DNA of 64,000 bases, taken from positions 1-64,000 of the forward strand of contig AJFK01000093.1 in the NCBI GenBank assembly GCA_000467715.1, written 5' to 3'. This DNA is from Hysterium pulicare CBS 123377 (taxonomy: Eukaryota; Ascomycota; Dothideomycetes; Hysteriales; Hysteriaceae). Each line of letters begins with the position of its first letter. Position 1 is the stretch's first letter. The position numbers and the translations under genes are program-made. Shown piece after piece: positions 9,607 through 53,560 of this stretch. The notes under the pieces are model-generated. The model searched no databases and had not been told where the DNA came from. It was given only the letters and a program-made list of their open reading frames with translations.

Positions 9607-10523
9607 CTCGCATGATTATGAGCGGATCGGACACAATCTGACAAGACGTTGGATCAAGTGGAGGATGACTTTCACGAATTACATACGACAACAATTTCTT
9701 TTGCATGACGAGATGATTTGAGCGTATTCAGAACACTACGAACACGACCTCAAAAGCATCATAAAAGCCTCGACGACACGAATTCACTCAATATTTTCTT
9801 CTCGTTTCTCTCAATAGTCACACAAACGGCACGCTTGTCCATCTGTTTCATTGTTCTTTCAAAGTTTCGGGAGGCTGTTATTGCATAATTACGCCTTATT
9901 TGGTTTCGTTGCAGGCGTCACAGAGGCACATCTCTCACGAGGGGAAAAGCACTTTTTTCAGTTGTATTCCCCTGTTCGCATTAGCCTCTACCACTTCCTG
10001 TTCTTCTGTAAATATGCATAGGGAAGGTTTGTTCATTTGGAGCCGGCGTATCGGCCAGATATGCATGGATTTGATGCGGAGTTTTGTGGAGTTCTGCTGT
10101 ACCACACACGGTGGACAGTGGATGTACACTTGGTGATTTCCTTTAGGATTCTGCATTGGGAAGGGGATGGATCATGCCGACGTGTTATGAAGCAACAAAT
10201 GAGATGAATTACTAAATACATGATGCAGTTTTCGTGAATTGATGCAAGTCTCAAAGTCCTGTGATAGCGTGGACCATTCGACCATTTCCCGGCCAACGCG
10301 ACGCGACAGGCCATTGTGGCAGACATAATGCAATCCGGCAGAGAAAAGAAAGGCATCAATTGATTCAACAACCTCACAACCTTGCCACCTCGAACTGTGC
10401 TCAGAATGATGTCAACGCCTTGACATACGCACAGCAATCACTATCACATATCACAATAGTCGCTAGTTATCTTATCACAAGCTCGTATCACACCGCCCTG
10501 CATCCTGCTGTGCAGCCACCAGC
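9607..10523. other. intergenic region between the 8119 gene and the BRCT gene
   Basis: About 0.9 kb holding the 3' UTR of the upstream gene and the promoter of the BRCT gene. Short open frames here overlap each other on both strands and show no motif. I see no tRNA or repeat. Confidence 0.5.
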
Positions 10524-11684
10524 ATGCGACCCCACGCACGCAACGAAGATGCACCGAGCTCCCAGCGTGTTCATCACATCTCTCCATCGCCGTCAGATTC
10601 CAGAACGTGCCCACCTGCAGGTCCCGAAGTTCCAGCGCCACCATCGTCTGCGACCATCTGCAGTGCTGCTGCTCCCCTGCCCGAGCCCTTGTCCGAACCC
10701 TCACCACGACTGCAAACGCTACCGCCCCGGCATCCGCTCGCCTCGTCGAAGTACCCATCTACTTCGAACTATCACCCTCAAGCGTCACAGACATCACAAG
10801 CTTCAACCCTCGCTAGACCTAAGTCCAATCTGACATCCACGCCCGAGTCTACTACGATTAGCACCGCACAAAAAGCAGCTCAACCCTCCCGCGCCGTTTT
10901 CGATCCCTGGAACTCATCGTCGACGGGCCACCAGCGCGCTGAAAGCAGGCTTGCGAGTAGCACGTCGTGGCGTGCTTCGAGGAATCTCAAACTCTCGTCT
11001 CAGTTTCGGGCTGGGTTGAGCGGCGGGAACCGAGTAGCGGATACAGTTGGCGCGGGGAGTGAGGCGTTTGGGAAGGATGGGAGAAAGGCAAATGGAGGGT
11101 GGGAGAGGGGCGCGTCGGGGCTGAGGGGGAAGGGACAGAGGAGTCTAGTAGAGTTTGTGGGGGTTGGGAAGGGGAATAAAGCTCACGCTACTGCTGAGAA
11201 AGACATCGAGGCCGAGGTTGAAGAGCTGGGAGATGAAGAAGTGGATTCTGCGGCTGCCTCTGACATGGAGATGCGGCCGCCGACGCAGAAACAGATCTTC
11301 CAAGGCCTGTGCTTCTACGTGAACGGCTCCACGGCTCCACTCGTCTCGGATCATAAACTCAAGCGTCTTCTAGCAGAACGAGGAGCCACAACGTCAATTG
11401 CCCTTGGAAGGAGAAGCGTCACGCACGTCGTTCTCGGGACCGCAAATGGCCAAGGTGGGGCTGGGGGTGGTCTATCCGGCAGCAAGATCCAGAAAGAGAT
11501 CGTGAGGATTGGCGGAAAGGGCGTCAAATTCGTCGGCGTGGAATGGATCCTCGAGTCCATCAAGGCCGACAAACGGTTACCTGAAGCCCGGTTTTCTACG
11601 CTGAAGATCGCGCCCAAGGGGCAGAACAGTGTGTATGGGCTGGCGAAGAAGATTGAAGAGAGGAGAGCGGACTCTGGTGATTGA
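10524..11684 (+). CDS. single-BRCT-domain protein, probable DNA-damage-related factor
   Basis: Single exon, 386 residues. The first 120 residues are Pro/Ser/Thr-rich and look disordered. A block at about 127-200 (DPWNSSSTGHQRAESRL, TSWRASRNLKLSSQF, DTVGAGSEAFGKDGR) looks constrained. Residues 210-250 are acidic. A BRCT fold follows at about 258-350: QIFQGLCFYVNGST, LKRLLAERGAT, THVVLGT, then GVKFVGVEWILESIKADKRL with the characteristic Trp near 341. BRCT domains bind phosphopeptides in DNA repair and checkpoint proteins. A Rev1-type BRCT is possible, but there is no polymerase domain, so this is not REV1. Nuclear location is inferred. The start is the first in-frame ATG; a later start is possible because the N-terminus is low complexity. 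Confidence 0.8.
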   Translation: MRPHARNEDAPSSQRVHHISPSPSDSRTCPPAGPEVPAPPSSATICSAAAPLPEPLSEPSPRLQTLPPRHPLASSKYPSTSNYHPQASQTSQASTLARPKSNLTSTPESTTISTAQKAAQPSRAVFDPWNSSSTGHQRAESRLASSTSWRASRNLKLSSQFRAGLSGGNRVADTVGAGSEAFGKDGRKANGGWERGASGLRGKGQRSLVEFVGVGKGNKAHATAEKDIEAEVEELGDEEVDSAAASDMEMRPPTQKQIFQGLCFYVNGSTAPLVSDHKLKRLLAERGATTSIALGRRSVTHVVLGTANGQGGAGGGLSGSKIQKEIVRIGGKGVKFVGVEWILESIKADKRLPEARFSTLKIAPKGQNSVYGLAKKIEERRADSGD

Positions 11685-12380: not shown

Positions 12381-13674
12381 TCACGCACCTCCTCTTGGCT
12401 TCGCTTTAGCACTTTTCTTCTCTTTCGCGCTCTGCTTCTGTTTCTTTTTCTTCTCCTGAACCTTCTCTTCTGCTTTCCTCTTCAGGCTTGCCTTCTCCTC
12501 CTCCGTCTTCGCAATCGGCTTGAAAAACCCCTCCAGCCTACTCTGCTGTGCGGTCTTCAGATTCTTTTGCAGTCTCGCCGCGCCGTTCCTCACCCGATCC
12601 TCGCTGAAATGCTTCTCCTCAACTAGATACTTGATTAGACCCTCGATGTCGGGTGCTTCCCACTTGAAATCGCAGTCTGGGTGATCTGCTGAGTGGACGT
12701 CGGGCTCCAGGAAAAGAATACGAGCGTCTTTGTATGGCCAGTCTTCGGGGATGGTCAATTTGCCCGCTTTCTCTATGGCTTCGACAACGCCTTCGAGGTT
12801 CTTGTTTTCGCGGATGAGTTTGAGTGCTGTGCTAGGGCCGATGCCTTTAATTGGGTCAAGGTAGTCGCAGCCGAGGAGGATGCAGAGATCGATGAATTGT
12901 TCCCTCTCCATTTCTAGTCCTTCAAGAACTCTGTCTAGATGTATTTCTTGAATTGGCTCCTTGCGTTGCTCACTGAATGTAAGATGTCGTATGAGCACAG
13001 GTGAATCGAACGTAAGTGTATCCATATCTTCCGACGCCGCCGCATACACTTTTCCAGCTCTCGCCAGCACCGCACATTGGGCCTCTGCTTCTGTTGGGGC
13101 AATGATATACGGGATTCCCATGAGCTTCAGCAGCTTCTGACACTCAGCGTTGTGCTCCCTCGTGACTCTGACTGTCCTCCGCGAGAACTTCTCTATGTCC
13201 TCCGCAGTTCCCGTCTCTTTTGCTTCCTCATGGGCAGCTTGCGCTTCGGACTTTCGTTGGAAACGCTTGGCAAGTTCGCCGGACTTGAGCTTTGGTGGAG
13301 CCCCATCGAAGACGAAGAGTGGCTTGATGCCGTTGTCGACCATGCGGAGGGTGCGGTAGAACATGCCCATTAGATGCGATGTAGTTTCACCAGTATCGCT
13401 CATGAGTTGCTGGCCATCAGAGCGAACGGCAATCAGGAAGCTGTAGATGCTCATTGAGCTGGGAGGAGTGTTAGAGGAATAGTGAACTCAATATTATTTT
13501 ATCTGGAGGTGAACGTACGCATCCTGAAGAAATCAGTAATGTGAACCCCACAGCGCATGTACTACAAGGACTTACGATGGCAACTTTCCGTCCAAACTGA
13601 TTCTTGATCTCGCCAGTTTTGACAGCATCGGGCGCATTCTCGCTGATCAGCTGGTAAAGGTGTTTGATACCCAT
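12381..13674 (-). CDS. RAD27: flap endonuclease 1 (FEN1/RAD27), with a 5-nt internal exon
   Basis: Exons on the minus strand: 13576-13674, 13519-13523 and 12381-13458, giving 393 residues. FEN1 cuts 5' flaps in Okazaki-fragment maturation and long-patch base-excision repair in the nucleus. The Mg-binding residues sit at standard positions: D34, D86, E158, E160, D179, D181 and D233. The PCNA-binding box QQSRLEGFF and a Lys-rich tail close the protein. The middle exon is only five bases, GATGC. It completes VAI-DAS-MSIYSF and carries the codon for D34, so skipping it would remove a catalytic residue and shift the frame. Flanking introns are 52 and 60 nt, both GT-AG. The gene is divergent from the glutaryl-CoA dehydrogenase gene. 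Confidence 0.96.
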
Positions 13675-14194: not shown

Positions 14195-15634
14195 ATGTTT
14201 GGACCCGTTTGCAGACATGCCTCAAGGCAATTGACTGTGCCAGTTCGTTCCGCTGCCATCGGAAGACGACATGTCCATGCTCCTGTACCGTTTGATTGGA
14301 AAGATCCTCTTGGGGCAAGCAATCTATTTACGGAAGACGAAATGGCCATTGCCGAAACCGCAGAATCGTATTGCCAGGAGCGTATGCTCCCACGCGTATT
14401 GGGTATTCATCCATAGCTCTCCTAAACAAATAACCACTGACTTAGCTCCTTGCAGAGGCATATCGGAACGAGAATTTCGATAAGAAGATCCTTGAGGAAA
14501 TGGGAGGACTGGGTCTACTTGGTGCAACAATACAGGGTTATGATTGCGCCGGTGTAAGTAGTGTAGCTTCGGGATTGATCACAAGAGCTGTGGAGAGAGT
14601 CGATTCGGGTTACCGATCCGGGTACTCGGTGCAGAGCGCCCTAGTTATGGGTGGCATTGAGGAATTTGGCTCTGAGGAAATCAAGGAGAAGTATCTACCT
14701 CAATTGGCAAAGGGGAAAATGATAGGTTGCTTTGGGTTGACGGAACCAAATCACGGGTCGGATCCGGGGTCCATGGAGACAACCGCAAAGCCACACCCGT
14801 CCAAGAAAGGCTATCTCTCCATTTCTGGTTCCAAAACCTGGATCACGAACTCTCCGATCGCTGATGTGCTCATGGTTTGGGCCAAGTTGGAATCAACGGG
14901 GAAGATCCGCGGATTCATTATCGAGAGGGACCAATGCCCTCCTGGAACCCTCGAAACGCCCCCAATAAAACATAAGAATGGTCTTAGGGCTTCAATTACA
15001 GGGATGATACATTTGGATGAATGCCCTGTTCCCGAAGCGAACATGTTCCCGGATGTGGAAGGGCTGAGAGGGCCCTTCAGCTGCTTGAATTCTGCTAGGT
15101 ATGGCATCGCATGGGGAACCATAGGTGCTTTAGAAGACTGCATTGCAAGGGCCCGAGAGTATGCCCTCGAAAGAAAACAGTTCAAGAGCAACCCCATTGC
15201 AAAGTATCAGCTTGTACAAAAGAAACTCTCGGACGCCACCACGGATGCTGCATATGGCATCCTAGCAGCTACTCAGGTAGGAAGGCTGAAGGACGAAGGA
15301 AAGATCGCCCCGGAAATGATATCCATGATCAAGAGGCAGAACTGCGACATGGCGTTAATCAATGCAAGAGCGTGAGTCGTCCAGGAGTCCTTCTTGGGTC
15401 CTTAATCACTGAACAAACGGCCAGGCTGCAGGAGATTTTTGGCGGTAATGCCGTCAGTGACGAATATGGAATTGGAAGACACGTTGCAAATCTATTCGTG
15501 ACTCAAACCTACGAGGGTCAAAGCGATATTCACAGTAAGTTTCACTCAAGCTGCAGAGACACAGCTCAACTGACCTGGTCAACCCAGCCTTGATTCTCGG
15601 AAGAGCTATCACGGGAATACAAGCCTTCTGCTAG
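14195..15634 (+). CDS. glutaryl-CoA dehydrogenase (mitochondrial acyl-CoA dehydrogenase family)
   Basis: Exons 14195-14402, 14456-15371, 15425-15534 and 15588-15634 give 426 residues with exact phase. The enzyme oxidises and decarboxylates glutaryl-CoA to crotonyl-CoA in lysine/tryptophan breakdown, using FAD. The first 30 residues ([13 protein letters not shown]...GRRHVH) are basic and free of acidic residues, as in a mitochondrial presequence. Family marks are [58 protein letters not shown] and TYEGQSDIH, whose Glu corresponds to the catalytic base. The whole-protein pattern fits glutaryl-CoA dehydrogenase better than short-chain acyl-CoA dehydrogenases. All three introns are exactly 53 nt. 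Confidence 0.92.
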
Positions 15635-51045: not shown

Positions 51046-53560
51046 ATGTTTATGCTAAGAAACGGTCAGTCCACCCCACCAACTGTTGCCCCTCTGTGGT
51101 GTAACTGCCCGCTCAATAAGCAGACAACAAACTAACACTTGCCACAGTTAGTAAATTCATCTTTGGTGACAGCTCCAAGGAATCCATCATCGAAATCCCC
51201 CAAGGCCAGCTGTATCTAGTCCGACCCCTCTCCGTTAAGGGCTACTCAGAGCTCATCTTCAAAGACGCCGCGGCCACAATCCGGCGGACTGGCCAGGAAT
51301 TCCAATACCAGCTGGTCATCCAACGCGCATACGAAGAAGGAGAAGAGGAGCTTCTTGCCGAAGAAGAGGGTGAGGAGGGCACATTAGAAGGCCTGGCCGG
51401 CGAGAAAGACGAGAAGACTTTCCTTCTTGACGAGAGTCTACAATTCCGAACAGACATTCGTCAGACTGGTGAAAAGGTTTTCGCGTGGAGGGATCTCAGT
51501 GGAGACGACGGTGACCTCTGGGAGTTTGTGTGCGACCCTTCTGTGAAACCAGAATCCGCTGCCCTATTTGAGCAGGTCGCCCTCCAGTGTCAGTACGAGA
51601 GAAAATATCGGAAGAGCCACGAGAACGCGACCGAGCACGACCTAGCGCAACTTACATATTCGGAAGAGCCTATTCCAGACGCCAGCCCAGTCTCTCCTAC
51701 ACCTGAACCAACACAGCTGTTTCCCAACACCACGAAGGAAAACATGGCTAAGAAGGCCACAGGAAAGGGCAAAGCCCCCAAGCAAGAAGAAGGCCCAACA
51801 GTTGCTCCGCCATCCGCCGTGCAACCCAAAGATCAGGGTACTCTAGTAGACACAGTCGCTGAGTTACACCTCTTCGATTTTCCCTCTGGTACATTCATTC
51901 TACAGGAGACTGAGGTCCGTGCCGCCGTCCTAGAACTCGGGAATTGGAATTATTGGCTGCAGGTAACAGGATCGGATCGAGAATGGATGGGATCTCCCGT
52001 CATCGCGGACATCAATCCCGTATTCAACTTCGAGTTCTTGTCCTTTATCTTCAATCACTACCTGGAAGATGGCTCGGCTTACTCATGGCTGCTTCGTTTC
52101 AAGGATCTCGAGACTCTGGAGAGCTTCCAGCAAGCCTTGATGCAAGCCTTATGGGAACATCTCAATCAAACCAAGTGGGGTAAAGCTAAGGATAATGACC
52201 GCGACTATGTGCTTGAAGCCTTCCAAGACCTCACAATGGAGGATGCGCCCGACGAGGAGGAAGAGGAGGAGGACGAGTACGAAGAGGCGAATGATGGTCA
52301 GCGAAGCGAGCATTATGACAGCGATGAATCTGAGGATGATGTTGTCACCCGTGATGAAGATGGAAACGTCAATTCACAACTTGCTGTTGGATATAAGCAC
52401 GACCGGTCATTTGTTGTGAGGGGATCGAAGATCGGGGTCTTCAAACATAACCCTGACAACACTCTCGAATTTTCGACCAACATCTCCAAGGTGGAAACAC
52501 CCAAGGGAAAGAAACTGTTCAGTCCGAGCAAGGTTATGTTACATGCTGAGGATAGAGATATGATCTTGCAGAACGCGGACAATCCCAACTCCCTTTATCG
52601 CATGGATCTCGAATACGGGAAGGTCGTAGATGAATGGAACGTCCATGACCATATACCCGTCAAGACTTTTGCACCAGAGAATGTAAGTGAAATACCTCAC
52701 TCTGTAGTGGTTTATAAGTCCTAACCTGTTGACAGAAATTCGCACAAATGACCGGAGAGCAGACCTTTTTAGGTCTATCCGGGAACGCACTCTATCGTAT
52801 TGACCCTCGTCTGTCAGGCCAGAAATTGGTCGATAATCAACTGAAACAATACGCCACAAAGAATGACTTTTCTGCTGCCGCTACAACAGAGAAGGGTCAT
52901 ATTGCTGTTGCGTCCAACAAGGGGGACATTAGATTGTTCGATCGCCTGGGAATCAATGCTAAGACACTTATCCCGGCCCTTGGTGACCCAATCATCGGCA
53001 TGGATGTTTCCGCAGATGGTAGATGGGTTCTTGGAACTACGAGAACCTATCTACTTCTTATCGATGCTCTACAGAAAGGCGGCAAGAATGATGGAAAGCT
53101 TGGCTTTGAAAAGGCGTTTGCTAAAGACGACAAACCACAGCCAAGACGTCTCGCGCTCACTCCGAGCCATGTTGCGCAATTCCAGCACGAGACGAAGGCG
53201 CCGATATCATTCACGACAGCTCGATTTAACACGGGTCTGGATGACAAGGAAACCTCCATTATCACAGCCACTGGTCCGTTCATTGTGACGTGGAGTTTGA
53301 AGAAGATCCTTGCAAACCGCAAAGATCCATATAGTATCAAGCGATACACCGAAGAAGTCAAAGCAGACAACTTTAAATTTGGGTCTGACAAGAATGTCAT
53401 CGTGGCCCTTCCCAATGAAGTCGACATGGTGGCAAAGCGAGCTCTACAGAGACCGACACGAGAGAGCATAGCAACTCCAGCTAGGATTGGAGCTGGCAGG
53501 CGAAGCGGCGCGAGGAGCAGCTACTTGGGACGAAACGACATTGTTAACAGTCCTTATTAA
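51046..53560 (+). CDS. VID27: VID27 family protein (vacuolar import and degradation)
   Basis: Exons 51046-51064, 51148-52682 and 52736-53560 give 792 residues. VID27 is linked by name and yeast studies to vacuole import and degradation of fructose-1,6-bisphosphatase; its biochemical role is not settled. The N-terminus MFMLRNVSKFIFGDSSKE starts in a 19-nt first exon and continues EIPQGQLYLVRPLSVKGYSE. The middle has PH-like regions, with VAELHLFDFPSGTFILQETE and SFIFNHYLEDGSAYSWLLRF. An acidic stretch (DEEEEEEDEYEEA) precedes the C-terminal beta-propeller-like VID27 domain: SFVVRGSKIGVFKHNPDNTL, GEQTFLGLSGNALYRIDPRL, GHIAVASNKGDIRLFDRLG, ADGRWVLGTTRTYLLLIDAL. The end is basic and Ser/Arg-rich. 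Phase is exact across both introns. Confidence 0.92.

Follow-up and report, generated by a model that had tools for sequence, protein, structure and literature searches.

Gene structure

The locus raises the question of whether five nucleotides of a flap endonuclease gene form an exon of their own and, if so, how such an exon would be spliced. The window, the whole stretch of DNA that was analysed, comprises 64,000 nucleotides (contig 78, bases 1-64000) of a 37.2 Mb genome in a 596-contig draft assembly. A preliminary description had placed a 5-nt internal exon, GATGC, between two GT-AG introns of a FEN1 gene, and its coordinates, strand and sequence for the exon and both introns were exact. 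The gene lies on the minus strand at 13674-12381 and is made up as follows.

13576..13674, minus strand: FEN1 exon 1, 99 nt, codons 1-33, ending in phase 0 after I33; from translation and alignment with human FEN1
13524..13575, minus strand: FEN1 intron 1, 52 nt, with donor GTAAGT, acceptor CAG and, close to the 3' end, the branch-like site CTGAT; from the sequence
13519..13523, minus strand: FEN1 microexon GATGC, 5 nt, the D34 codon and two bases of A35; from join enumeration, shuffles and a tandem-signature scan
13459..13518, minus strand: FEN1 intron 2, 60 nt, phase 2 in A35, with donor GTACGT, acceptor CAG and, close to the 3' end, the branch-like site CTAAC; from the sequence
12381..13458, minus strand: FEN1 exon 3, 1078 nt including the stop, encoding the rest of XPG_N, XPG_I and the C-terminal QSRLEGFF; from PDB and Pfam matches and alignment

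Exon 1 ends in GTTGCCATC and exon 3 starts with CTCAATGAGC. The gap between them measures 117 nt: the 52-nt intron, GATGC and the 60-nt intron. With GATGC included, the spliced frame encodes 393 amino acids and reads VAI-DAS-MSIY across the joins; the segment GRKVAIDASMSIY is the same in the spliced product and in human FEN1. By its sequence, GATGC has the size of a coding microexon (internal, at most 15 nt, spliceosomal introns on both sides).

Two neighbours were observed on the plus strand. Tail to tail with FEN1 stands a 405-codon open frame (10467-11681 of the window), which matches BRCT_2 weakly, at 28.4 bits where the cut-off is 27.3. Upstream of FEN1, at 14446-15372, is an acyl-CoA dehydrogenase gene with three Pfam domains, in which placement of a downstream intron was unconvincing.

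Encoded protein and paralogues

The predicted product is 56% identical to human FEN1 and matches its residues 1-380. Pfam assigns XPG_N to residues 1-107 (104 bits) and XPG_I to residues 149-233. The GAT of the microexon aligns with D34 of human FEN1, as the preliminary description had proposed, and D34, D86, E158, E160, D179, D181 and D233, which we take to be the seven active-site acids of FEN1, are all present in the alignment. The C-terminal QSRLEGFF, presumably the PCNA box, aligns with human QGRLDDFF. The two domains and the seven acids place the protein with FEN1 in the XPG/Rad2 nuclease family, with flap endonuclease activity predicted.

A genome search returned seven matches: two were the large exons of the FEN1 gene, and five were weaker, 29-42% identical over parts of the protein. 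Judged from these sequences, the product is an ordinary FEN1 and the genome has one FEN1. In the paralogue on contig 528 (match 10190-10477), which we assume to be Rad2/XPG-like, the corresponding aspartate lies in an uninterrupted 598-codon frame, LAVDASIWIYQF. In that on contig 170, assumed to be Exo1-like, it lies in an uninterrupted 75-codon frame, IGVDAYGWLHR. The tandem introns are therefore not common to these two loci. The aspartate motif was unmatched in a scan of the paralogue loci on contigs 557 and 512. Protein and two-sequence-alignment searches of viral_contigs and genome_contigs yielded no FEN1 relatives: of the 17, 44, 20 and 107 stretches that fitted the patterns, not one was confirmed.

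Splice joins and chance occurrence

Joins within 13674-13380 were enumerated from all GT, GC or AT donors and AG or AC acceptors, with introns of at least 20 nt. DASMS appeared in an open frame in 16 of the 101,296 two-intron joins, and VAIDASMSIY was intact in one: the join that places GATGC between the 52- and 60-nt introns. GATGC and intron 2 were used by 13 of these 16 joins; the remaining three used ATGC with a GC donor and deleted conserved exon 1 residues. No single-intron join in the same enumeration restored the motif. These results bear out both the 5-nt exon and the claim that it is needed to read VAI-DAS-MSIY. They also confirm that skipping GATGC would remove D34 and shift the frame: without the microexon, the product ends at 46 amino acids.

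Two other readings of the gap were rejected. One 117-nt intron (13575-13459) shifts the frame and loses DA, and a 9-nt mini-exon, GATGCGTAC (13523-13515), leaves the downstream frame wrong.

VAIDAS might also be reached by another route in which GATGC is not a separate exon, for example through a nested intron resembling a stwintron, a type documented in Pezizomycotina (PMC6616335). This appears highly improbable: among joins with uninterrupted donors, no alternative kept VAIDASMSIY, and no three-intron route splitting the five bases was found among GT...AG stretches of at least 38 nt. Donor, branch-like site and acceptor are uninterrupted in both introns, which sets them apart from stwintrons. 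Nor is GATGC a recursive splice exon, the start of which is described as re-forming a GT donor at the upstream junction (PMC6224609): the exon begins GATGC, the junction reads ATC/GATGC and no GT is recreated.

To gauge chance occurrence, the gap was shuffled 200,000 times with dinucleotide composition kept and the end GT and AG fixed. AG/GAYGC/GT with at least 40 nt on each side arose in eight shuffles, and in none (0/200,000) once GTRNGT as the donor of intron 2 and a CTRAY in each intron were also demanded. A homology-free scan for tandem-intron signatures around an exon of 1-20 nt covered 264 kb on both strands, made up of the window plus 20 further stretches of 10 kb. It found one, the GATGC locus, and none in each of 20 simulated sets; because the pattern was devised after the locus had been viewed and the window was selected for the finding, these counts measure rarity and are no blind test.

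The locus is represented by one copy in a draft of 596 contigs, and a false indel, in an assembly error or a decaying gene, could make a normal exon boundary resemble a microexon. We regard this as most improbable, for the rest of the frame is open and conserved to its end, GATGC is flanked on each side by a full set of intron signals, and a single indel could not produce a second complete intron.

Short introns of the neighbourhood

Introns were placed by homology in nine pairs of open reading frames, with the trehalose pair left out of the results. One placement was convincing and serves as an example of a local short intron; the two FEN1 introns are of similar shortness.

52683-52735, plus strand: VID27 intron, 53 nt, with GTAAGT, CTAAC and CAG

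Placements of a 46-nt intron in AP-beta and of a 56- or 77-nt intron (tied) in a P450 gene were plausible. Homology gave no convincing intron for GatB, Sec24 or two acyl-CoA dehydrogenase pairs, and a single intron placed in the FEN1 pair gave nothing but wrong joins.

Introns called by motif showed a local excess at 50-59 nt, with 35 against 15 in the reversed sequence. In total, the reversed control was higher, at 432 against 272. There was no excess in the 60-69 nt bin that holds intron 2 (17 against 19), and GTACGT, the donor of intron 2, was not enriched (6 against 7). Mining of the 264 kb for introns by coding potential was set aside, since it passed 23 where three motif controls passed 16, 11 and 19; an earlier coding-potential pass over the 264 kb had kept six, of which four passed. 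Local intron statistics are weak support for the FEN1 introns.

Comparison with known tiny exons

We found no published description of a FEN1 microexon in the open-licence literature. The closest published parallel is a 1-nt exon in Fusarium CYP621A (PMC12940212), reported, like the FEN1 exon, from a filamentous fungus as an ultra-short exon that the frame requires, in an invariant motif and between two short introns. It differs in being 1 nt rather than 5 and in belonging to a P450 of unknown function. It is also described as common to 20 orthologues and seen in 18 reads from two species, with one read containing intron sequence, whereas the FEN1 microexon is known from one genome sequence. 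Most gene models are said to lack the CYP621A exon (PMC12940212).

Plant microexons of 1-15 nt are similarly tiny coding exons in conserved domains, with flanking introns reported to be removed consecutively, and a 5-nt exon of rice has been validated by RT-PCR; unlike the FEN1 exon, many have RNA-seq support and form clusters conserved throughout land plants (PMC8831610). The single-nucleotide exon of Arabidopsis APC11 resembles the present case as a constitutive exon of a single-copy gene, for which intron definition and stepwise removal are described, but it is 1 nt long, from a plant and reporter-tested (PMC4674806). Among fungi, the P450 genes of Phanerochaete chrysosporium also have tiny exons, with introns of 45-55 bp frequent; these belong to a basidiomycete gene family, in which the shortest exon reported is 6 bp (PMC1184071).

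Splicing of the microexon

Taken on its sequence, GATGC is very probably a coding microexon of 5 nt, constitutively included in the FEN1 mRNA of this fungus, which its genome size, gene content and intron style suggest to be filamentous; the short flanking introns would be removed sequentially. Since the microexon holds the codon of a catalytic residue, its faithful splicing would be required. The preliminary description held that 5 nt is too short for ordinary exon definition. That concern presumes a mechanism ascribed to long introns. As short introns are believed to be recognised through intron definition, exon definition is probably not limiting here. Under intron definition, efficiency is reported to follow the length of the intron and not that of the exon (PMC8624252).

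Both FEN1 introns may accordingly be recognised across themselves. Two assembling spliceosomes are unlikely to fit around 5 nt, so the introns would be removed one at a time: once the first is gone, the other would be flanked by exons of ordinary length and would be removed second. Published cases back sequential removal around tiny exons (PMC8831610, PMC4674806). In worms, microexons with unusually short flanking introns, of which two were detected, are reported to be independent of PRP-40 (PMC8378409). Of six FF-repeat matches in the present genome, four lie on contig 447, a clustering that would be expected of Prp40, for which this locus is a candidate.

The computed mis-spliced products were 46 amino acids with the microexon skipped, 65 with intron 1 kept, 42 with intron 2 kept and 67 with both kept. 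That all four forms end early, at 42-67 amino acids, would suit a regulated switch, in which inclusion depends on conditions and unproductive splicing, by skipping or retention, reduces FEN1 by way of premature stop codons and decay of the mRNA. The early stops are no proof of a switch because any exon with a length not divisible by three has the same effect. Fungal examples can be cited in its favour. The microexon of Trichoderma Xlr2, like that of FEN1, occurs in a filamentous ascomycete and codes for part of a functional domain, namely two cysteines of a zinc cluster; it differs in being 20 nt long, in having glucose-dependent inclusion and in belonging to a transcription factor (PMC11121469). 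Skipping has also been described for an exon of 15 nt in A. niger rtnA (PMC6616335). In FEN1, skipping would require splice sites 117 nt apart to pair across two short introns that each have complete sites of their own, and in plants deviation is reported to occur more commonly by retention than by skipping (PMC8831610). We therefore consider a switch very unlikely. The suggestion in the preliminary description that skipping acts as an off switch is unsupported, retention being equally inactivating, and its interpretation as a whole is partly supported. For a constitutive microexon, skipping and retention would be minor events, with early stop codons as their sole outcome.

A further speculation, to which we give slightly less credence still, is that the microexon has been kept to couple FEN1 output to splicing efficiency. 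Skipped or half-spliced mRNA would rise under splicing stress or changed conditions and FEN1 would fall; translation might then restart at M37 and yield a protein that lacks D34. If this were true, the active site of FEN1 would be a sensor of splicing fidelity.

Implications

The FEN1 microexon is a striking case of a known but seldom annotated class of tiny exons. A gene finder that overlooked GATGC would call FEN1 truncated or lacking its true N terminus. For exons this small the locus offers a clean test, in which a core DNA-repair gene, found in one copy, combines an out-of-frame 5-nt exon encoding a catalytic residue with two complete short introns. It is consistent with intron definition tolerating almost arbitrarily short exons.
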